Source of the DNA: a virus
IMG/VR virus record: IMGVR_UViG_3300033153_004317
Coordinates: 1 to 47,159 of that record
Length of the DNA stretch: 47,159 bases
Direction: 5' to 3' (one strand)
Shown here in pieces: positions 2-26,909 of the stretch. The translations under genes were made by a program, and so were the position numbers. The notes under the pieces were generated by a model. That model was not told the origin of the DNA, made no database searches, and saw only the letters and a program-made list of their open reading frames with translations. Each line of letters opens with the position of its first letter. Positions within the stretch are counted from its first letter, which is position 1.

Positions 2-1780
2 GGGACGTTCCCCGCGCCGTCAATCGCGCCCCTCGCGGTAACCGACGCCAAGGTCGCCGCGGCCAACAAGGACGGCACGGCGGGCACGGCGTCCATGCGG
101 ACCCTCGGGGCCGGCGCACAGCAGGCCACGGCCGGCAACGACGGGAGGCTCTCCGACGCCCGCACCCCGACCTCGCACGGGCTCGGTGGGGGCGAACACG
201 CCACGGCGACCCTGGCGCAGCTCAACGCGAAGATCAGCGACGCGGACCTGATCGACTCGGGGGCCGCCGCCGCAGCGACGAAGGAGCCCACCGGGTTCGT
301 CGACGGTCAGGCCGACGTCGTGATCTCGTGGTCCGACGTGTCGAAGGTCCTGACCGTGACCCCGACCGGGGCGGACTTCGACCTCTGGCAGCGAGGCGTG
401 AAGTTCACCAAGACGGCCGAGACCAAGGACGTCAGCGGCTCGATCGCCGAGGGCTTCTGGTTCTTCTACTACGACACGTCGGGCGTGCTCCAGGGCGGCC
501 AGACCGTCTGGGACCTCGAGCAGCACGCGCCGGTCGCGTTCCTCTACTGGGACGCGACGAACTCGAAGGCGCTGAACCTGGCTCTCGAGACCCACGGGAC
601 CGCAATGGGCTGGAGCACCCACCGCGAGCTTCACCTCACGGTCGGGGCGCTCTGGCAGACCGGGCTCGCCGCCTCGGGCAACGTGGCCGGCGACGGGAGC
701 GTCGCCTCGCACGCCCAGATCGCGGTCGGGGCCGGGACGATCCACGACGAGGACCTCATGGTCCAGATCACGTCGGGGGTCGGGGGCGGGCTGTTCGAGC
801 AGGACCTCGGTCTGCCGGCGAAGATCCCCGTCTGGTACCTGGACGGGTCGGGGCCGGTGTGGCGGAAGAAGACCGCCAACACCTTCCCGCTCCTCGAGGG
901 CACGAGTCGGATCAAGTACAACCAGTTCAGCTCCCCGAACTGGATCCAGACCGACGTGGCGAGCAACGGTCGCTACGCGGCGATCTGGCTGTTCGCCACG
1001 AACAACCAGGCCGAGCCCGTCATGGCGATCCTCGGCCAGAGCGACGACGGCACCCTCGCCAACGCGAAGGAGAACAACATTCTCGCCAGTCTGAGCCTGG
1101 CGGGCATGTTCCTCCAGGAAATGAAGGTAATCGCGCGGCTGATCTTCCAGTCCAGCAGCTCCTACGGGAACGCCTCGAAGGCGCGCCTCCGCGACGTACT
1201 CGACCTCAGGGACGTGTCGAGCATTCCCTCGGGCGGGTTCATTGCGACCACGCACAACAGCCTCGCCGGACGTGACCTGTTGCCCTCGCACCCCGCGAGC
1301 GCCCTCACGGCGGACGTGTCCGCGTTCGGAGGAGCCCTCTCGGCGACCGAGGACACGGTCCAGAAGGCGCTCGACAAGCTCGACGACAACGTCTTCGGGC
1401 TCAACTACACGAAGGGCGTCTCGGAGGCCGAGTCGACCACGACGACCAAGCTCTCGAGCTGGGACGACAAGCTCACCGTCGCGCTGCCGGCGATTACCGG
1501 GACCATGCTCGTCACCGCCAGGGCCGAGGTCAGCACGCTCGTCAAGGACAAGGCTGTCGCGTGTCGGCTCTACAACTCGACCGACGCTGTCGTCCTCGGT
1601 GATTCTCTGATCACGACCCTGGAGGGCGGCGACACGAGCGTCGACTGGCTCACGGTCGAGTTCACCGTCGAGGTCGTCCTGGCCGGGACCGGCAAGGACA
1701 TGAAGATCCAGTGGGCCGACGACTCGACCTCGACGGCGAAGATCCGTCGGGCCAGGATCTTCGCCTGGCGAGTCGCGTAG
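2..1780 (+). CDS. Fibre-like structural protein, 5'-truncated by window edge
   Basis: The frame is open from the first bases of the window and ends at TAG 1778-1780. The first internal ATG is at 95, but reading frame and composition continue upstream, so the gene starts outside the window. Near the visible start is the hinge motif LGAGAQQATAGNDGRLSDAR, close to the 'LGtGaqqAaaGNDsRLsdaR' segment common in phage tail fibres and other virion appendages. The middle is rich in beta-prone Gly/Thr/Ser sequence. The last 120 residues look like a compact beta domain ending in ARIFAWRVA. I infer a virion surface or fibre protein; the exact position is unknown. A TAGGAGGAG overlap leads straight into the next gene. 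Confidence 0.75.
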   Translation, partial: GTFPAPSIAPLAVTDAKVAAANKDGTAGTASMRTLGAGAQQATAGNDGRLSDARTPTSHGLGGGEHATATLAQLNAKISDADLIDSGAAAAATKEPTGFVDGQADVVISWSDVSKVLTVTPTGADFDLWQRGVKFTKTAETKDVSGSIAEGFWFFYYDTSGVLQGGQTVWDLEQHAPVAFLYWDATNSKALNLALETHGTAMGWSTHRELHLTVGALWQTGLAASGNVAGDGSVASHAQIAVGAGTIHDEDLMVQITSGVGGGLFEQDLGLPAKIPVWYLDGSGPVWRKKTANTFPLLEGTSRIKYNQFSSPNWIQTDVASNGRYAAIWLFATNNQAEPVMAILGQSDDGTLANAKENNILASLSLAGMFLQEMKVIARLIFQSSSSYGNASKARLRDVLDLRDVSSIPSGGFIATTHNSLAGRDLLPSHPASALTADVSAFGGALSATEDTVQKALDKLDDNVFGLNYTKGVSEAESTTTTKLSSWDDKLTVALPAITGTMLVTARAEVSTLVKDKAVACRLYNSTDAVVLGDSLITTLEGGDTSVDWLTVEFTVEVVLAGTGKDMKIQWADDSTSTAKIRRARIFAWRVA

Positions 1781-1788
1781 GAGGAGCC

Positions 1789-2034
1789 ATGACCGTCTAC
1801 ACCTACGAGAACGAGACGAACCCGAACCTGGACACGCTGCGCTCCGAGATCGACCTCGACGCCCAGCTCGTCGCCGACAAGGACTCGGGGGACGAGGGCC
1901 ACTTCGATCGCGCTCGCTGGGACGAGGACGAGACCTCGCCCGGGTGCGGAGTCGGCGATCTTCAGATCCACTGGGACGGCGATCTCTGCGCGACCTGCAA
2001 GACCGCCCTGGACGCGATCGTTGCGGGGCTCTAG
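1789..2034 (+). CDS. Small acidic hypothetical protein (81 aa)
   Basis: Starts at ATG 1789, placed by a strong Shine-Dalgarno (AGGAGG at about 1779-1784) that overlaps the stop of the preceding fibre-like gene, and ends at TAG 2032-2034. The protein is highly acidic, with many Asp and Glu residues, and ends with a short CATC cysteine pair inside LCATCKTALDAIVAGL. No domain is recognised. Tight coupling to the upstream fibre gene suggests co-expression, perhaps as an accessory or chaperone, but that is only inference. Reading further upstream in this frame would overlap the fibre gene and lacks a ribosome site. Confidence 0.6.
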   Translation: MTVYTYENETNPNLDTLRSEIDLDAQLVADKDSGDEGHFDRARWDEDETSPGCGVGDLQIHWDGDLCATCKTALDAIVAGL

Positions 2035-2142
2035 GGACAGACCCTCCCTGAGGCCCTCCTCGGACGTTGCCCTGGGTCTCGGTTCGTTGCACCATCGGCT
2101 CCCTGCTAACATGGACTCGGAAGGGGCCGAAGGAGGCTGCTA

Positions 2143-2577
2143 GTGGATCTTCCCCTCATGCTCGCCATGGAGGTCTCGGACGGGGCCATCTGGGGAGCGA
2201 TCCTCGGCCTCGCCGGAGCGGCCGGCGGCGCGGTCAAGGCCGTCTGGTGGTACCTGACGGAGCGCGAGAAGAAGCGAGCCGAGCTTCTCAAGCAGGCCCA
2301 CGACGCCGCGCTCTCCACCAAGGACGGCGAGATCACCAGGCTTCGCGACGAGGTCAAGGATCTCGGGAAGCGACTCGCGAAGAAGTCCGACGACCACGCG
2401 GCCAAGGTCGAGGAGCTGATGCTGCTCGCGCTGACCAAGGTCGAGGAGGGCCGAGAGCAAGACAGGGAGGCGCGTGAGGAGTGGTCCGAGAGGGACCGCG
2501 AGTCAAGGGCCGAGATCCTCAAGGCGCTCGTTGACTTCAACGCCACCGTGAACAGGTTGAATCCACAGAAGCCTTGA
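2143..2577 (+). CDS. One-TM coiled-coil protein, possible holin
   Basis: Start GTG 2143 is chosen because GGAGG lies 6 bases upstream; ATG 2158 is an in-frame alternative. Residues about 14-35 (GAIWGAILGLAGAAGGAVKA and the following VWW) form one hydrophobic segment. About 100 residues of heavily charged, heptad-like Lys/Glu/Arg sequence follow, predicted coiled coil. A short N-terminal membrane anchor with a long cytoplasmic helix is seen in some phage holins and inner-membrane spanins, and small membrane proteins near fibre genes are often lysis proteins. No endolysin is visible in the window, so the lysis role is unproven. Confidence 0.5.
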   Translation: MDLPLMLAMEVSDGAIWGAILGLAGAAGGAVKAVWWYLTEREKKRAELLKQAHDAALSTKDGEITRLRDEVKDLGKRLAKKSDDHAAKVEELMLLALTKVEEGREQDREAREEWSERDRESRAEILKALVDFNATVNRLNPQKP

Positions 2578-2582
2578 ACGAG

Positions 2583-2590
2583 GATTAGAG
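2583..2590 (+). promoter_or_regulatory. GATTAGAG leader element
   Basis: Exact GATTAGAG, 13 bases upstream of ATG 2604, followed by the ribosome site GGACAGGAG. Same octamer as at 7416, 17044 and 17054. Confidence 0.35.
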
Positions 2591-2603
2591 GACAGGAGAC
2601 AGC

Positions 2604-2954
2604 ATGGCAGCCACGCCCTCGCCGCAGGATCCGCTCGAGGTGTTCAAGCAGAGGCTCCTGGAGTCGGACGTTGAGCAGGCCCAACAGATCAACAGGATCA
2701 CCGCCGCCCAGCGGGCCCAGACGGCCAGGACCAAGGCTGAGATCGGCAAGGCGAGCGGGGCCGTGGGCAGACTCTCGAAGACGCTGATCGAGACCAATAC
2801 GAGATTCTCGATCAGGGCGTTCAAGAAGGCGAGCAACAACGGGGACGGCGACGAGGACGAGCCAGAGGACGAGGAGGAAGGGCTCGCTCGGCGCGAGACC
2901 GAGGTGGTAGACTCTGAGGAACTTGCTCGTCGCCTGGAGCGCGACGGGCAGTAG
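2604..2954 (+). CDS. Hypothetical helical protein with acidic tail (116 aa)
   Basis: ATG 2604 follows GGAGACAGC, a good ribosome site; the gene ends at TAG 2952-2954. The first 75 residues are predicted helical with Gln/Ala/Arg-rich heptads. A low-complexity acidic stretch follows at about residues 82-92 (GDEDEPEDEEEG), then a charged helix. The 5' leader carries a GATTAGAG element at 2583. The stop is followed after 4 bases by a perfect copy of the 18-bp palindrome. No family is recognised; the position between a membrane protein and fibre genes suggests a virion or lysis accessory. Confidence 0.5.
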   Translation: MAATPSPQDPLEVFKQRLLESDVEQAQQINRITAAQRAQTARTKAEIGKASGAVGRLSKTLIETNTRFSIRAFKKASNNGDGDEDEPEDEEEGLARRETEVVDSEELARRLERDGQ

Positions 2955-2958
2955 TCGA

Positions 2959-2976
2959 GTTTGGGATATCCCAAAC
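2959..2976. repeat. 18-bp palindrome, perfect copy 1
   Basis: GTTTGGGATATCCCAAAC. Starts 4 bases after the stop of the 2604 gene and ends 12 bases before GTG 2989. Confidence 0.9.
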
Positions 2977-2988
2977 CGGGAGCACGCG

Positions 2989-4143
2989 GTGGGGTGGCAA
3001 AGTGAAGACTTGAGCGCGCAGGTAACGACCGGGACCGGGATCACGATCTCGACCACGTTCCAGCGCGTGCTGTCCAGGCTCGCCGTCTTCTACGACGGCC
3101 TCCGGGTCAAGGAGGCCTTGTTCACCGAGGTCGACTCGATCCAGCTCCGGCTCGACTTCGCCTCAGTCCTGGGCGAGGACCTCCTCGTCGTCTACTGGAC
3201 CGACCAGACCGCGGACGGGCGCGTGGTCGGCTACTCCGAGGATCCGAGCGGGGGCGCGGTCGAGATCCCGCAGACGCTCGAGGACATCATTGAGGGACTC
3301 GACCAGAGGATCGACGCCATCGAGGACGCACCCCCAGCAGACTCGAAGGACTCGGTCAGGTACGCGACCACCGCCGACGTCGGGGGCAGCTACGACCAGA
3401 CGGGTGGGATCTCCGAGCGCGGGCAGCTCGCCAGCATGGCCGACTCGGTCGACGGGACCACGCTCGAGGCCGGCGACAGGATCCTGGTCAAGAACCAGAC
3501 CGCCAAGGACCAGAACGGCGTCTACGTGGTCTCCTCAGTCGGGTCCGGCGTGGACGGGGTCTGGGACCGGGCCGGGGACTTCGACGCCGACGCCGAGGTC
3601 ACGAGCGGCGCCGTCTTCCACGTCATAGCCGGGATCGCCAACGCGAGGACGGCGTGGATTCTCCTCACCCCGGACCCGATCGAGGTCGGGGGCGCGAGCG
3701 GGACCGATCAGCTCTGGGGTCAGATCCAGGGCGGGACCGTGTCGATCACCGACCTGGTCAGGACCTACGCGGCCGGCGTGCTCGCCCAGGACGCGGTCTA
3801 TCAGAAGGCCGACGCGACCGTCGGGAGGGCCGACGCGACCTCGACCACGACCGCGCGAGCCTTCTTGGGGTTCGTGGCCTCCAAGGACCTCCCGAACCCG
3901 GGCCAGGTCACGATCCGCTACCACGGGGATCTGTCGGGGTTTTCGGGGCTCGTCGCGGGCAAGACGTACCTGATCAGCACGAGCCCCGGCCAGGTCGTCG
4001 CGTCCGACGACATTACGAATCCCATTCACCCCGAGTTCGCCGGACTCGTCCCGGGAAGCGGATTCGTGACCCGGGAGGTCGGCCAAGCTAAAGACTCGAC
4101 CACCCTCTTCGTCGAGGGCAGTCGAGACTACGAAGTCATGTAG
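2989..4143 (+). CDS. Tail-fibre-like structural protein
   Basis: The frame is open from before the palindrome at 2959, but GTG 2989 is preferred: it lies downstream of the palindrome and has GGGAG about 6 bases upstream. TTG 3010 is an alternative. The central part has DGTTLEAGDRILVKNQTAKD followed by QNGVYVV, the signature of a domain common in phage fibre and baseplate-attached proteins ('lDGvtlaaGDrVLvkdQt..eNGiYvv'). The C-terminal third (GLVAGKTYLISTSPGQVVAS) resembles the small beta domain found at the end of many virion decoration and fibre proteins. Followed after 14 bases by the long fibre gene. Confidence 0.7.
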   Translation: MGWQSEDLSAQVTTGTGITISTTFQRVLSRLAVFYDGLRVKEALFTEVDSIQLRLDFASVLGEDLLVVYWTDQTADGRVVGYSEDPSGGAVEIPQTLEDIIEGLDQRIDAIEDAPPADSKDSVRYATTADVGGSYDQTGGISERGQLASMADSVDGTTLEAGDRILVKNQTAKDQNGVYVVSSVGSGVDGVWDRAGDFDADAEVTSGAVFHVIAGIANARTAWILLTPDPIEVGGASGTDQLWGQIQGGTVSITDLVRTYAAGVLAQDAVYQKADATVGRADATSTTTARAFLGFVASKDLPNPGQVTIRYHGDLSGFSGLVAGKTYLISTSPGQVVASDDITNPIHPEFAGLVPGSGFVTREVGQAKDSTTLFVEGSRDYEVM

Positions 4144-7889: not shown

Positions 7890-10130
7890 ATGGCCGACCA
7901 CCTGACTCTCAAGCAGGCCGCGGCGGGGGTGCCGGCCCCGGGGAAGCTCGCCGAGACCGACAGGGCGATCCTGTCGGGGCTCGTCCGGTCCTCGAGCGGG
8001 ACCGCGTCGCTCTACTCGGACACGGTCACGACGGGAATCACGATCGGGGGCGGGGGCGGTGCCCCCGACCTGGCCTCGGTCGTGATCGGGGCCACAGTCA
8101 CGATTCCGGGTAGCGGTACAACGTCAACCAGAATCGGTTCCGGGGCGGTCGCCGACAACACCGACGCGGTCGCGGTTGGAACCAACTCTGACGCTGGAGG
8201 TTTGAGGGCGATTGCGATCGGTTTGGGATCTGGTTCATCGGGCGGTCAGAACGTTGCGATCGGATACAACTCCCTCGCAGACGGATCAGATTCCGCGGTC
8301 GCAGTCGGAGACCGGGCCGACGCGGGAGGTCAGAGGGCCGTCGCGATCGGCGGCCTGGCGAACGCCGACTCGCCAACCACGGTCGCGATCGGGTATCAGG
8401 CAGCCGCGACCACGTCTCAGTCAATCGCGATCGGGAGTAGTGCCCAGGTTACGACTAACTTGCGCGGCGTAGCGATCGGCTCCTCGGCCAGCACGACGAT
8501 CGGAGGCGTCGCGATCGGCTACAACGCGCAAAACGACTCCGGCGGCAACTCGGGGGTCGCGATCGGCGTTGGGGCTCAGGCGAATGCCGACAGCGCCACC
8601 TGCGTGGGGCGAGGCGCCCTTGGGTCCTCTCATGGGGTCGCCATCGGGGCCACGGCGTCGACCAGTGGAGCCCTCAGCGCAACCGCTGTCGGTGAAGGGG
8701 CGGCGGCGTCAGCCAGTGGCGCCTCGGCGTTCGGCAGGGACTCGAACGCCGGGCACACGGACGCCCTCTGCCTCGGACGCTTCGCCACCTCGACGGAGTC
8801 CAGACAGTGCGTGATCGGGTCGGCCAACGCTCCCCTCACGGCTTTCTACCTGGGTCAGGGTGTCGAGACTACGGCGACGGCACCAGATATCTTGATCAGT
8901 GCCAGCTCGATCGCGACGAGCGAGACCGACGAGTCCGGTGGTTCCGTCGCTTTCCAATCGGGTAAGGGCACTGGGGCCGGGGCGGCGAGCACGATCACGT
9001 TCCAGACCCCGACCGCGCTCGGGTCAGGGACGACCCAGCAGTCCCTCACGACCAGGATGACGATCGGAACCACGGTCACGATCCCTGGCAGTGGGACAAC
9101 GTCGACCCAGATCGGCTCCTCCTCGAGCGCGGCCAACACGGACACGATCGCTGTCGGACGCGCTTCATCGGCCTCCGGTTCGAGCGGGGGCGCGATAGCG
9201 ATCGGAGCACAAGCTACGGCCGGGGCCGGCAACCGAAACCTTGCGATCGGCTTTGCCGCCCAGGCGACCGGGACCGGGAGCGGGAACTCGACCGTCGTCG
9301 GGCATCAGTCCGACGACGGCGACAACACCGCCTGTTCGCTGTTCGGGGCGGGGGTCACGGCGAGCGGCACAAACGCCACCGGAATAGGACAGGCCGTCAC
9401 GGTTGCTGCAAGCGGAACGGCTGTCGGCTGGTCGGCAGATGCCTCGGTGCAGGCCGTGGCGATCGGGAGGGACGCACAAGCCGCGAACACCAACTCGGTC
9501 GCGATAGGAATGTCGACCAACGTGAGCGGCGTCAACTCGATCGGGGTGGGGCAGAGCGCCGCCGCCGCGGGGAACAGTGCTATCGCGATCGGTGGGTCCG
9601 CGAGCGCCGCTTACACCGATTCGATAGTACTCGCTAGGAATGCCGTCTCCACAGCCGTGAGTCAGTTCGTGGTCGGATCTCCCTCGCATACGATCGCGGC
9701 CTTCTATCTCGGCGAGGGTGTTGAGACGACCAACGCGGCCCCGGACGTCGTGATCAGCGCCAGCTCGATCGCAACAAGCGAGACCGACGAGGCTGGTGGA
9801 ACGATCACCTTCCAGTCCGGGAAGGGCAGGGGCGACGGCACCGAATCAACGATCGTGTTCCAGACGCCGAACAAGGTCGGCACAGGAACGGACCCGCAGA
9901 CCCTCACAACGCGGGTCTTGATCTCTGCAACCGACGTCACATTGGGTAGCGCCGACGACGAGAACGTCAACCTCGCCAGCAGCGGAGGTAAGGTCGGGTT
10001 CTACGGTGTGGCCGCCGTGGCGAAGCAGACGATCGCCACGGCGCGGGATAACCCTGAGGGAGCCCTCAAGGATCTCTTGGTGGCTCTTGCGGCGCTCGGG
10101 ATCCTCACGGACAGCACGACGGCTTCGTAG
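7890..10130 (+). CDS. Fibre with YadA-like adhesin head repeats (746 aa)
   Basis: ATG 7890 follows AGCGGGAGACGGAC. Residues 1-50 match the N-terminal module of the fibre at 4158 (AETDRAILSGL, GTASLYSD). Most of the protein consists of 14-16 residue units such as AIAIGLGSGSSGGQNVAIGY and AVAVGDRADAGGQRAVAIGG, the repeat of trimeric autotransporter (YadA/Hep_Hag) heads that forms left-handed beta-rolls. Two halves each contain TIPGSGTTST and end with FYLGxGVETT, ISASSIATSETDE and FQSGKG blocks, so the gene has an internal duplication. The C-terminal segment (VGFYGVAAVAKQTIATA, then LLVALAALGILTDST) is a frequent virion-protein terminus. Probably a trimeric receptor-binding fibre. Confidence 0.8.
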   Translation: MADHLTLKQAAAGVPAPGKLAETDRAILSGLVRSSSGTASLYSDTVTTGITIGGGGGAPDLASVVIGATVTIPGSGTTSTRIGSGAVADNTDAVAVGTNSDAGGLRAIAIGLGSGSSGGQNVAIGYNSLADGSDSAVAVGDRADAGGQRAVAIGGLANADSPTTVAIGYQAAATTSQSIAIGSSAQVTTNLRGVAIGSSASTTIGGVAIGYNAQNDSGGNSGVAIGVGAQANADSATCVGRGALGSSHGVAIGATASTSGALSATAVGEGAAASASGASAFGRDSNAGHTDALCLGRFATSTESRQCVIGSANAPLTAFYLGQGVETTATAPDILISASSIATSETDESGGSVAFQSGKGTGAGAASTITFQTPTALGSGTTQQSLTTRMTIGTTVTIPGSGTTSTQIGSSSSAANTDTIAVGRASSASGSSGGAIAIGAQATAGAGNRNLAIGFAAQATGTGSGNSTVVGHQSDDGDNTACSLFGAGVTASGTNATGIGQAVTVAASGTAVGWSADASVQAVAIGRDAQAANTNSVAIGMSTNVSGVNSIGVGQSAAAAGNSAIAIGGSASAAYTDSIVLARNAVSTAVSQFVVGSPSHTIAAFYLGEGVETTNAAPDVVISASSIATSETDEAGGTITFQSGKGRGDGTESTIVFQTPNKVGTGTDPQTLTTRVLISATDVTLGSADDENVNLASSGGKVGFYGVAAVAKQTIATARDNPEGALKDLLVALAALGILTDSTTAS

Positions 10131-23954: not shown

Positions 23955-24800
23955 ATGGCTGACCCGGTCCTCGACAACCTCCTCGCGGCACAGCGCGACG
24001 CGGCGAGCACGTTCCTCGTCGACGTCTCCTTCGACGTGCTCGACCCGGACGGGGACGACCTCGGCCTGGCCGTCCAGTGGGGGCACTCCGCGACCGGTCC
24101 CTGGACCCTGGCGACCCCGCAGACCTACGATCGCCAGCACTCGGCCACCGATCCGATCACGTCGGTCCCGACTGGGACCCCAGCCAAGGCGGTCCAGTTC
24201 GTCTGGAACGCATTCCACGACCTCCCCGCCGGATCCTACACGGACGTCCACGTCAGGGTCACGATCGACGACGGGGGGACGATCGACGACGGCGTGTTCG
24301 GTCCGTTCGCCGTCGTGACCGAAGTGACGACCCAGGCTGACGTGCTGACGAAGTCCTTGGCCCGGACCGGGATCGCCTCCAGGACCGAGCTAGAGTTCCT
24401 CGGCGCCGGCCTCTTGATCCCGTTCAGGCGAGGTGCGAGCGACTTCGTGAACGGCTCCGACGTCGAACTCGTCAAGGCGAGCGTGGCGCAGATCCTCGGG
24501 ACCAGGGCCGCCGTGGGGGACATGGGGGGCGACCTCCCGTGGCGACCCGACTTCGGGTGCAAGCTCTGGGTGCTCAGGAACCGCAAGAACGACCCGACCC
24601 TACAGGCCCAGGCGGTCGCGTTCGTCTACGAGGCTTTCCAGTGGGAGCCCAGGGCGGAGGTGACGGCGATCCAGGTCGAGGAGCAGGGAGACCCGAACTT
24701 GCTCCAGATCCTCGTCAGGTATCGGGTGATCTCCGAGAACGTGGACGCGAATCGAGTCTTCCTGCCGGAGTTCGAGGAGGTGGTGACGATCGCCGCGTAG
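23955..24800 (+). CDS. Baseplate wedge protein gp25/gpW-like with N-terminal beta domain
   Basis: ATG 23955. The first 110 residues (STFLVDVSFDVLDPDGDDLG and WGHSATGPWTLATP) look like a fibronectin/Ig-like domain. From about residue 150 the sequence is gp25-like: DLPWRPDFGCKLWVLRNRKN, YEAFQWEPRAEVTAIQVEEQ, with the conserved E-P-R turn, then LLQILVRYRVISEN. T4 gp25 and P2 gpW form the wedge that triggers sheath contraction. The extra N-terminal domain is uncommon for this normally short protein. The gene is followed by the HNH insertion. Confidence 0.8.
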   Translation: MADPVLDNLLAAQRDAASTFLVDVSFDVLDPDGDDLGLAVQWGHSATGPWTLATPQTYDRQHSATDPITSVPTGTPAKAVQFVWNAFHDLPAGSYTDVHVRVTIDDGGTIDDGVFGPFAVVTEVTTQADVLTKSLARTGIASRTELEFLGAGLLIPFRRGASDFVNGSDVELVKASVAQILGTRAAVGDMGGDLPWRPDFGCKLWVLRNRKNDPTLQAQAVAFVYEAFQWEPRAEVTAIQVEEQGDPNLLQILVRYRVISENVDANRVFLPEFEEVVTIAA

Positions 24801-24821
24801 CGGTCGCGCCGAGGAGAACGA

Positions 24822-24860
24822 ATGGTCGACACGATCACCGAGCGGGCGGACGATTTTACC
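24822..24860 (+). repeat. First copy of duplicated gpJ N-terminal coding segment
   Basis: Encodes MVDTITERADDFT. Compared with 25368-25406 (MVDTITERASDFT), 31 of 39 bases match by my count and most differences are synonymous third positions, so the protein start is preserved while the DNA differs. Confidence 0.85.
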
Positions 24861-25367
24861 GACATCGAGACCTGGAAGTGGGTCCCTGGGTACGAGGGAT
24901 TCTACGAAGCATCCGATCAAGGGAGGATTCGAAGGAACTGTCGAGTTCGTAGAACCAGGGTTCTGAAGTCTTTCCTAAGTGGTAGCGGGTACCTGACTGT
25001 CAGACCATCCCTCCATGGGGAGCCAAGAACGGTCAGCGTACATGTTCTCGTTTTGCGTGCCTTCCGAGGTGAACGTCCACCTAGACACGAGACAAACCAC
25101 AAGAACGGCGACAAGACCGACAACAGGCTTGCGAACCTAGAGTACATGACGCGGAGCGAGAACCTCGTTCATTCCTATTGCTACCTCGGCAGGAAGTCTC
25201 CTGGGAAACGTGGGGAAGAGTCGCACCTGTCAAGACTCACTGAGAACAACATCCGCGAGATTAGATCGAGGGGTGATTCGATCTACGCCGACCTAGCTGA
25301 GGAGTTCGGGGTGACCCCTTCGACGATCGGGAAGATCGTTCGTCGCGAAACGTGGAGGCACATTTAG
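24822..25367 (+). CDS. HNH homing endonuclease (NUMOD4 + HNH + HTH)
   Basis: ATG 24822 follows CCGAGGAGAACGA. After the 13-residue gpJ-like start comes a NUMOD4 module (WKWVPGYEGFYEASDQGRIR), then an HNH core (HVLVLRAFRG, then TNHKNGDKTDNRLANLEYM and SENLVHS), and a C-terminal helix-turn-helix (YADLAEEFGVTPSTIGKIV). This is the layout of phage-borne free-standing homing endonucleases that cut a neighbouring site in a rival genome. Base composition is visibly lower in G+C than the neighbours, indicating transfer. It ends with TAG just before ATG 25368 of gpJ, whose ribosome site GGAGG lies inside this gene's end. Confidence 0.9.
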   Translation: MVDTITERADDFTDIETWKWVPGYEGFYEASDQGRIRRNCRVRRTRVLKSFLSGSGYLTVRPSLHGEPRTVSVHVLVLRAFRGERPPRHETNHKNGDKTDNRLANLEYMTRSENLVHSYCYLGRKSPGKRGEESHLSRLTENNIREIRSRGDSIYADLAEEFGVTPSTIGKIVRRETWRHI

Positions 25368-25406
25368 ATGGTCGACACAATCACAGAGCGAGCGTCTGAC
25401 TTCACC
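25368..25406 (+). repeat. Second copy of duplicated gpJ N-terminal coding segment
   Basis: Encodes MVDTITERASDFT at the start of gpJ. It uses ACA, ACA, CGA and TCT where the upstream copy uses ACG, ACC, CGG and GAC. Confidence 0.85.
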
Positions 25407-26909
25407 AACAAAGACTTCGACTCCTGGATCCTTGAGGAGCGCGCGAGGGCCAGCGCGGCCTTCCCGGCGTGGACGGACTTCAACACCCCCAACTACGGCA
25501 ACATCCTGCTGGAGCTGTTCGCCCACACGCTCGACGTGTGCTCGTTCACCCAGGACCAGCAGCACCTCGAGCGGTTCACGGACTTCGCCAGGCTCCGGCG
25601 CTCCATGATCCTCCTCGGGAAGAACGTCGGCTTCAGACTCCCCGGGGCGGCCGTCGCCAGCGTCGACCTCGAGATCACCTTCGCGAGTGGGGTCGCGGTC
25701 GGGGCCGACCTGGTGATCCCGAAGGGGACAGTGGTGAAGCCGGCCGACGAGGACGTCGAGTTCGACTTGATCGCGGACGTGACGATCCCCGCGGGGTCGA
25801 TCCAGGTCACCGACGCGGGGGCCGAGAACGCACGCGAGCGCACCGACACGTTCGTCGCGGACGGGACGCCTGATCAGACGGTCAGGCTCACCTCGACGCC
25901 GTTCGTGGACGGCTCCGCGGACGGCAACGTCGTCGCCGGGATCGACACGTTCACGGAGGTCGACGACTTCCTCCAGAGCGGACCCGCCGACAAGCACTTC
26001 GTCGTCGACGTGGACGAGAATGACCGCGCCACGATCCGCTTCGGGGACGGGATCAACGGCGTGATCCCGACCGGAGCCGGGAGCGCGGTCTACAAGACCG
26101 GCGGCGGCGCAGACGGCAACGTCGAGTCCAACTCGCTCACCGTGTTCCGCGACGGCAACCGCTTCCCGACCCTCTCGGGAGAGCAGGTCCAGCTCCTCGT
26201 GAGGAACCCGAGCGCCGCCGCGGGCGGCGTGGATCGCATGAGCGTCGAGGAGGCCAGGGTCGCGATCCCAGCGAGCCTCAGGACGACCGGCAACCGCAGC
26301 GTGACCCGTACCGACTTCGAGGACAACTCGAAGAAGGTCCGGGGCGTGGCCCGGTCCATGATGCTCACAAGCGACGACGACGGCTCGATCCCAGAGAACA
26401 GCGGGAAGCTCTATGTGGTCCCGGTCGGGGGTGGACTCCCGAGTAGCCAGCTCAAGCAGGACGTGGCGGACCTAATCAACGACGACTACCCGCCCTGCCT
26501 GACGTTCACTTTCAGCGTCGAGGACCCGAGCCTGCTGATCGTCTCCGTCACCGCGACCGTCTACCTCAACACGGGAGTCTCGGAGGCCGACGCCCGCACG
26601 GCGATCGAGAACTCGCTCGACTCGTTCTTCTCGCTCCTCAACGACGACGGGAGCGAGAACACTCAGATTGACTTTGGATTCAAGGTCCGCTCGCTCCGAA
26701 TGCCCGCCGGGTCGACACAAGGCGAGATCCCCTGGAGCGACCTGTTCAACGCGATCGGGGACGCGGCCCTCGCGGACGGCTCCCTCGCGCTCCGCAAGGT
26801 CGCCGAGGACACCGTCGTCCCCGTCAACGACGTGCTCTTGACCGACATCGAGTTTCCCGTCCTCGGATCAATCACACTTGTGAACGGCGCAACCTCGGGG
26901 TCGTTCTAG
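25368..26909 (+). CDS. Baseplate J-like protein (gpJ, 513 aa)
   Basis: ATG 25368. Early motifs WTDFNTPNYGNILLELFAHT, LDVCSFTQDQQHLERFTDFA and LRRSMILLGKNVGFRLPGA are typical of large gpJ-type baseplate wedge proteins. Later are ATIRFGDGINGVIPTGAG and VARSMMLTSDDDGSIPENSG, the conserved 'v.fGDGi.G..p' turn. The protein bridges wedge units and connects to fibres. Its N-terminal 13 codons are a recoded copy of the start of the HNH gene upstream. It ends by TAGTG overlap with the next gene. Confidence 0.88.
   Translation: MVDTITERASDFTNKDFDSWILEERARASAAFPAWTDFNTPNYGNILLELFAHTLDVCSFTQDQQHLERFTDFARLRRSMILLGKNVGFRLPGAAVASVDLEITFASGVAVGADLVIPKGTVVKPADEDVEFDLIADVTIPAGSIQVTDAGAENARERTDTFVADGTPDQTVRLTSTPFVDGSADGNVVAGIDTFTEVDDFLQSGPADKHFVVDVDENDRATIRFGDGINGVIPTGAGSAVYKTGGGADGNVESNSLTVFRDGNRFPTLSGEQVQLLVRNPSAAAGGVDRMSVEEARVAIPASLRTTGNRSVTRTDFEDNSKKVRGVARSMMLTSDDDGSIPENSGKLYVVPVGGGLPSSQLKQDVADLINDDYPPCLTFTFSVEDPSLLIVSVTATVYLNTGVSEADARTAIENSLDSFFSLLNDDGSENTQIDFGFKVRSLRMPAGSTQGEIPWSDLFNAIGDAALADGSLALRKVAEDTVVPVNDVLLTDIEFPVLGSITLVNGATSGSF

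Follow-up and report, generated by a model that had tools for sequence, protein, structure and literature searches.

Mobile open reading frames (ORFs) of fungal mitochondria carry respelled C-termini of the genes that they enter, as reported for atp6, atp9, cox2, and nad3 of Glomus sp. and first seen in atp6 of Allomyces macrogynus (PMC3630166). In these elements, an endonuclease gene resides within a host gene with neither an intron nor an intein, a respelled and largely protein-conserving end completes the host gene, and the displaced native end matches the corresponding sequence of relatives (PMC3630166). A further fungal survey describes a GIY-YIG gene that is duplicated together with the N-terminus of atp9 (PMC7487136). 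Among phages, the seg and mob endonucleases of T4 are described in a review as free-standing genes that are variably present among relatives and that move independently of introns (PMC2988022). The review places them in intergenic positions, usually with a cut site hundreds of bases away, or within a split gene (Aeh1 mobE/nrdA and T4 mobA), and its passages on these genes note neither a recoded replacement end nor a carried gene end (PMC2988022). Finally, the engineered home-and-rescue drive HomeR places a nuclease-target cassette in an essential gene and preserves function by re-coding the end of that gene beyond the cut site, over a length of 22 or 27 residues (PMC7968924). Because HomeR is engineered, CRISPR-based, located at a 3′ end, and operated in flies, its likeness to the natural locus described below is in logic only (PMC7968924).

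The window, by which we mean the entire 47,159-base IMG/VR record that was analyzed, represents a contractile-tailed phage that encodes tail sheath, tape measure, gp25-like, and Baseplate_J proteins. On its plus strand, a gp25-like baseplate wedge gene (23955..24800; Pfam GPW_gp25, E 5.6e-10) is followed by a NUMOD4/HNH endonuclease gene encoding 181 amino acids (24822..25367), and then by the 513-residue Baseplate_J gene gpJ (25368..26909; PF04865, E 3.1e-12). The stop codon of the HNH gene directly adjoins the gpJ start codon (TAG, then ATG). The HNH gene opens with MVDTITERADDFT whereas gpJ opens with MVDTITERASDFT, and the resemblance between the two starts that had been noticed in a sequence-only reading of this DNA (12 of 13 residues and 31 of 39 bases identical) is confirmed. 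Specifically, codons 1-13 of gpJ are present as an upstream, displaced copy that now forms the endonuclease N-terminus (24822..24860, plus strand) and again as a downstream, replacement copy (25368..25406, plus strand). Whereas the fungal elements carry C-termini, encode LAGLIDADG or GIY-YIG enzymes, and reside in mitochondria, the window involves an N-terminus, an HNH enzyme, and a tailed phage; also unlike the fungal case, the displaced start appears to drive the endonuclease itself. We therefore regard this locus as working like the fungal mobile ORFs, without filing it as a member of that group.

By motif, domain, and fold, the inserted gene encodes a putative I-HmuI-like homing endonuclease that is predicted to cleave DNA. 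Residues 16-61 form a NUMOD4 domain (24867..25004, plus strand; PF07463, E 1.8e-10, 41.3 bits), and residues 73-115 form an HNH_3 nuclease domain (25038..25166, plus strand; PF13392, E 2.8e-12, 46.5 bits versus a cutoff of 24.8) in which N92, H93, N101, and N105 are invariant and H74 is nearly invariant in our family alignment (A4). The C-terminal helices at residues 141-173 (25242..25340, plus strand), as assigned from AlphaFold2 secondary structure, presumably bind DNA. I-HmuI (PDB 1u3e) is the sole solved sequence relative of this enzyme, with a match that spans the NUMOD4 and HNH regions (E 9e-7), and it is also the one significant fold match found by Foldseek (E 8e-8). The AlphaFold2 model has a mean pLDDT of 91, with only 59 for residues 1-10, and it shows no secondary structure before residue 18, the residue to which I-HmuI residue 3 aligns. 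The first 15 residues have therefore been added ahead of what is otherwise a standard homing-type nuclease. These residues are predicted to be floppy and to lie outside of the I-HmuI-like fold. Unlike the window enzyme, I-HmuI is intron-encoded and has no such gpJ-derived leader of 15 residues.

That enzymes of this HNH family are often intron-encoded, as is I-HmuI, invites an explanation in which the upstream start is connected to the body of gpJ by a group I intron, an intein, or ribosomal bypassing. However, a screen of the locus against Rfam revealed no group I intron and no other RNA family, and the stop codon of the HNH ORF sits beside the gpJ ATG. Furthermore, gpJ is equipped with a complete start and a ribosome site, which renders any such joining superfluous, and we consider this explanation to be highly improbable. 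Given the lack of an Rfam match, the HNH gene is best seen as a separate, free-standing ORF that lies outside of any intron or intein and ends at its own stop, as the sequence-only reading had proposed for an element that needs neither.

Our preferred reading, which we hold with reasonable though not full confidence, is that the HNH gene is an intron-free and intein-free homing element that lies within approximately the first dozen codons of gpJ and brings with it a recoded end of the gene that it targets. The layout of the locus makes plain that the endonuclease gene now begins with a native-type start and ribosome site, and that the second copy of the N-terminus, from which gpJ restarts, is spelled differently. 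The upstream ribosome site GAGGAG (24811..24816, plus strand), which is presumed to be the original gpJ site, lies 5 nt before the HNH start. The new gpJ ribosome site GGAGG (25354..25358, plus strand) is embedded in the conserved final codons of the HNH gene, with 9 nt separating it from the ATG. The leader sequences that precede the copies bear no resemblance to each other, indicating that the duplication begins at the ATG.

The duplication stands well apart from chance resemblance between gene starts. When the 39-mer is matched without gaps along the whole window, its second-best match reaches 24 of 39 bases. In a pairwise comparison of 668 candidate plus-strand starts, the two copies score 63; the sole higher-scoring pair is an internal repeat of one structural gene, and chance resemblance among the remaining pairs reaches 48 at most. 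In an anchored test of 88 HNH loci, the window again scores 63 and the next-highest locus scores 18. As a separate observation, the structural gene at 7890-10130 contains a long internal repeat (window 8892-8980 and 9750-9838, MISASSIATSETDE...).

Six codons differ between the two copies and five of these differences are synonymous (pS 0.66 versus pN 0.07), a bias that has a probability of p ~0.004-0.008 under neutral change of the upstream copy. Because the copies differ mainly at synonymous positions, they appear to have diverged while each still served as a working gene end. The simplest setting for this is separate phage lineages, in which case the replacement copy probably arrived with the element. 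The third-position GC content (GC3) of the replacement copy (0.67) is near that of the HNH gene (0.64), and the values for the displaced copy and the gpJ body are 0.83 and 0.93, respectively. The evidence from the window itself is short, comprising 13 codons, six of which differ, and two relatives.

A different origin for the repeat must be weighed here. Insertion could have repeated a short stretch of the gpJ start in direct orientation, through template slippage or illegitimate recombination, after which the copies drifted in place and nothing recoded was imported. Such an event would likewise yield a 39-nt direct repeat at the junction, and the rare codons at the gpJ start, which are common at gene starts of this phage, could stem from selection on translation initiation. 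We rejected these rare codons as evidence that the start is foreign, because an equal number of them occurs in the first 22 codons of 2 of 28 other genes; because other gene starts of the phage are also rich in rare codons, an argument from unusual codons alone is weak. In-place drift nevertheless fits poorly with the pattern of substitutions, as the upstream copy needs no gpJ function and yet its differences are nearly all synonymous. Additional evidence against it comes from the loci described below.

Relatives that lack the endonuclease bear on where the element entered. The nearest gpJ relatives are two loci with no HNH gene, one with a gpJ that is 68% identical (L114 of record G001, which also includes L111 and was reached via the tail sheath protein) and one with 71% identity (L115, reached via gpJ alignment); at these identities, they are too distant for DNA-level alignment of the junction. 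The gpJ gene begins 34 nt past the gp25 stop in L115, and a 67-residue Cys-rich ORF (L114:2143-2344) fills the gp25-gpJ gap in L114. Thus the junction is not clean in every relative, and judging by this ORF it may attract small inserts. At the codon level, both relatives have ACG at codon 4 and G at the third base of codon 8, and at codon 6 one has ACC and the other ACT; these readings fit the upstream copy or are at least unlike the A of the downstream copy. Neither window copy is favored at codons 10 and 11, and codon 12 is TTC in both relatives, as in the downstream copy.

The signal from the relatives therefore switches near codons 9-12, and the upstream copy does not preserve the old spelling along its whole length. 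Such a switch is what an insertion at this position predicts, with a native start upstream, then a start supplied by the element, and then native gpJ. These comparisons point to insertion near codons 9-12 of gpJ, with the replacement start supplied by the 3′ end of the element. The proposed insertion point would fall at the margin of the DFTxxDFDS coding motif that is conserved in gpJ. More distant gpJ loci (L033-L050) also have no insert at this position, and they keep a D-[FY]-T/S...DF motif beside the start.

The sequence-only reading had held that the element inserted just inside gpJ, took over its ribosome site and first codons, and supplied it with a new start, and had expected an endonuclease-free relative to carry the upstream spelling of a gpJ start located right after gp25. 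Part of this account stands, supported by the agreement of the relatives with the upstream copy at codons 4, 6, and 8, by the position of gpJ in L115, by the mostly synonymous differences, and by the same architecture at independent loci. It is qualified by the downstream-like codon 12 in both relatives and by the ORF that occupies the gap in L114. Wider searches yielded no relative in IMG/VR with an MVDTITER start, and no match there to the exact DNA pattern for MVDTITERA. Among 50,697 phage records there were no DNA-level relatives of the window locus, a gp25 probe found no close relatives, and a search of GTDB genomes with gpJ returned distant relatives only.

If the proposed explanation is correct, similar anatomy should be found elsewhere, and HNH loci were therefore scanned for translated repeats between their flanks. 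The scan covered ~170 loci, comprising ~80 from IMG/VR, 71 from Bacillota and Pseudomonadota genomes (a few counted twice), and 20 from annotated phages. An identity filter was added to the repeat scan because wide translated scans of GC-rich contigs gave out-of-frame, low-complexity noise. Background scores reach at most 47, and besides the window and L249, three loci stand out with scores of 100-143. The repeat in L249 was rejected as trivial because it consists of two tandem HNH genes. Also set aside was L196 (3970-4500), a possible weak 3′ case where the HNH C-terminus ISALEQA and the C-terminus IAALEAK of an upstream fibre-like gene are too weakly alike to rise above chance.

No duplicated ends were found in the ~80 other IMG/VR loci or in the 20 annotated phage loci, which marks this as a minority architecture. 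Its prevalence is uncertain because loci were picked by similarity to the window enzyme or by two Pfam families, and the IMG/VR sample is dominated by one HNH lineage. Among the annotated phages, the joined primase/helicase around an HNH gene in PVP-SE1 (L274:1291-4234) and the joined terminase around an HNH gene in LL-H (L272:1647-3785) have no duplicated ends and represent ordinary split-gene or intron arrangements.

The three standout loci are independent cases that all involve prophage genes of Bacillota. The first (L124, record G397, 1410-3145) is a second example at a 5′ end. Here the N-terminus of the terminase large subunit, MTILRPQPGPQEVFLSCPADIAIYGG, is severed as a 27-residue ORF, which is followed by a NUMOD4/HNH gene and then by the full terminase gene. 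Within codons 3-26 of the replacement N-terminus, ahead of the Walker A motif, 14 codons are respelled synonymously and 2 differ nonsynonymously. The join itself (GS*SAGGGKS) is interrupted by an in-frame TAG, which suggests decay or readthrough. In the second case (L217, record G125, reverse strand), an HNH gene lies at the 3′ end of a tape-measure gene whose 29-residue C-terminus is present twice. The HNH protein carries a GC-rich, native-looking copy as a C-terminal fusion, and the tape measure is completed by an AT-rich copy; all 29 residues are identical despite 22 respelled codons (22 synonymous, 0 nonsynonymous). In the third case (L228, record G407, reverse strand), the gene with an HNH gene at its 3′ end encodes a holin, and an amidase gene follows. 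The duplicated holin C-terminus is respelled (10 synonymous and 4 nonsynonymous differences), with the displaced end fused as in the tape-measure arrangement. These last two loci are C-terminal phage counterparts of the fungal mobile ORFs.

The holin locus also settles the direction of replacement in that case, because an uninterrupted holin gene that is 90% identical and resides in the same genome (L293) matches the displaced copy at 56 of 66 bases and the replacement copy at 40 of 66. No DNA-level relatives of this locus were found among the phage records searched above, and no endonuclease-free relatives of the tape-measure or terminase loci were found in the same orders. The GC3 values for replacement copy, endonuclease body, and displaced copy are 0.38, 0.43, and 0.79 for the tape measure; 0.32, 0.34, and 0.45 for the holin; and 0.27, 0.32, and 0.38 for the terminase. 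Thus, in all four loci including the window, the replacement copy resembles the endonuclease in GC3 and the displaced copy is closer to the host gene.

Drift of duplicated copies in place does not readily produce replacement copies with the GC3 of the endonuclease, complete retention of the tape-measure C-terminus across so many changed codons, or an uninterrupted holin homologue that matches the displaced rather than the replacement copy. We consider this origin for the window repeat to be unlikely, though it deserves more weight than splicing or bypass. Another explanation is that both proteins make use of the N-terminus that they share, which might act as a signal that places the endonuclease in the baseplate or virion. 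Conservation of 12 of 13 residues would fit such a role, as would the final DFT, which is the edge of the motif conserved among gpJ relatives. However, the peptide is predicted to be floppy in the endonuclease and is absent from all other HNH relatives surveyed, and the other cases involve unrelated genes and both gene ends. A shared function for this peptide is accordingly very doubtful.

Under the recoded-end explanation, the second copy of the gpJ start would have been brought in from another phage lineage as part of the element. The enzyme would cut uninterrupted gpJ starts at the insertion point, and repair would copy the whole unit, endonuclease and replacement end together. Respelling would spare the gpJ gene of the carrier from its own enzyme, and it would also keep repair from ending in the duplicate and discourage loss or deletion through recombination between direct repeats. 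The replacement copy would preserve the essential gpJ protein, while the displaced gpJ start would serve the endonuclease as an expression signal.

That other phage genes show this architecture at their 5′ or 3′ ends argues for a recurrent strategy. With somewhat less confidence than for the window alone, we favor the view that phage HNH genes include a recurrent natural class of recode-and-rescue homing elements that can carry either end of the target (5′ for gpJ and terminase; 3′ for tape measure and holin). In this putative class, the displaced end is often translated as an endonuclease tag, and the 5′ type would hijack the start and ribosome site of the host gene. Our search found no phage or bacterial precedent for a carried, recoded gene end in the open-access literature, a scope that makes any claim of novelty provisional. 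The N-terminal phage version seems to be new, and the C-terminal kind is already known from fungal mitochondria.

By carrying a respelled gene end, a homing endonuclease would have a third way, beside introns and inteins, to occupy an essential phage gene. This would account for the unusual tags that some phage HNH proteins bear at their N- or C-termini, and for truncated duplicate gene ends that confuse annotation. Such elements would be small natural analogues of engineered recoded-rescue drives, with ends of ~12-30 codons that are near the 22-27 re-coded residues of HomeR. Laboratory phages that carry them would offer a setting in which to study self-protection, resistance, and loss.
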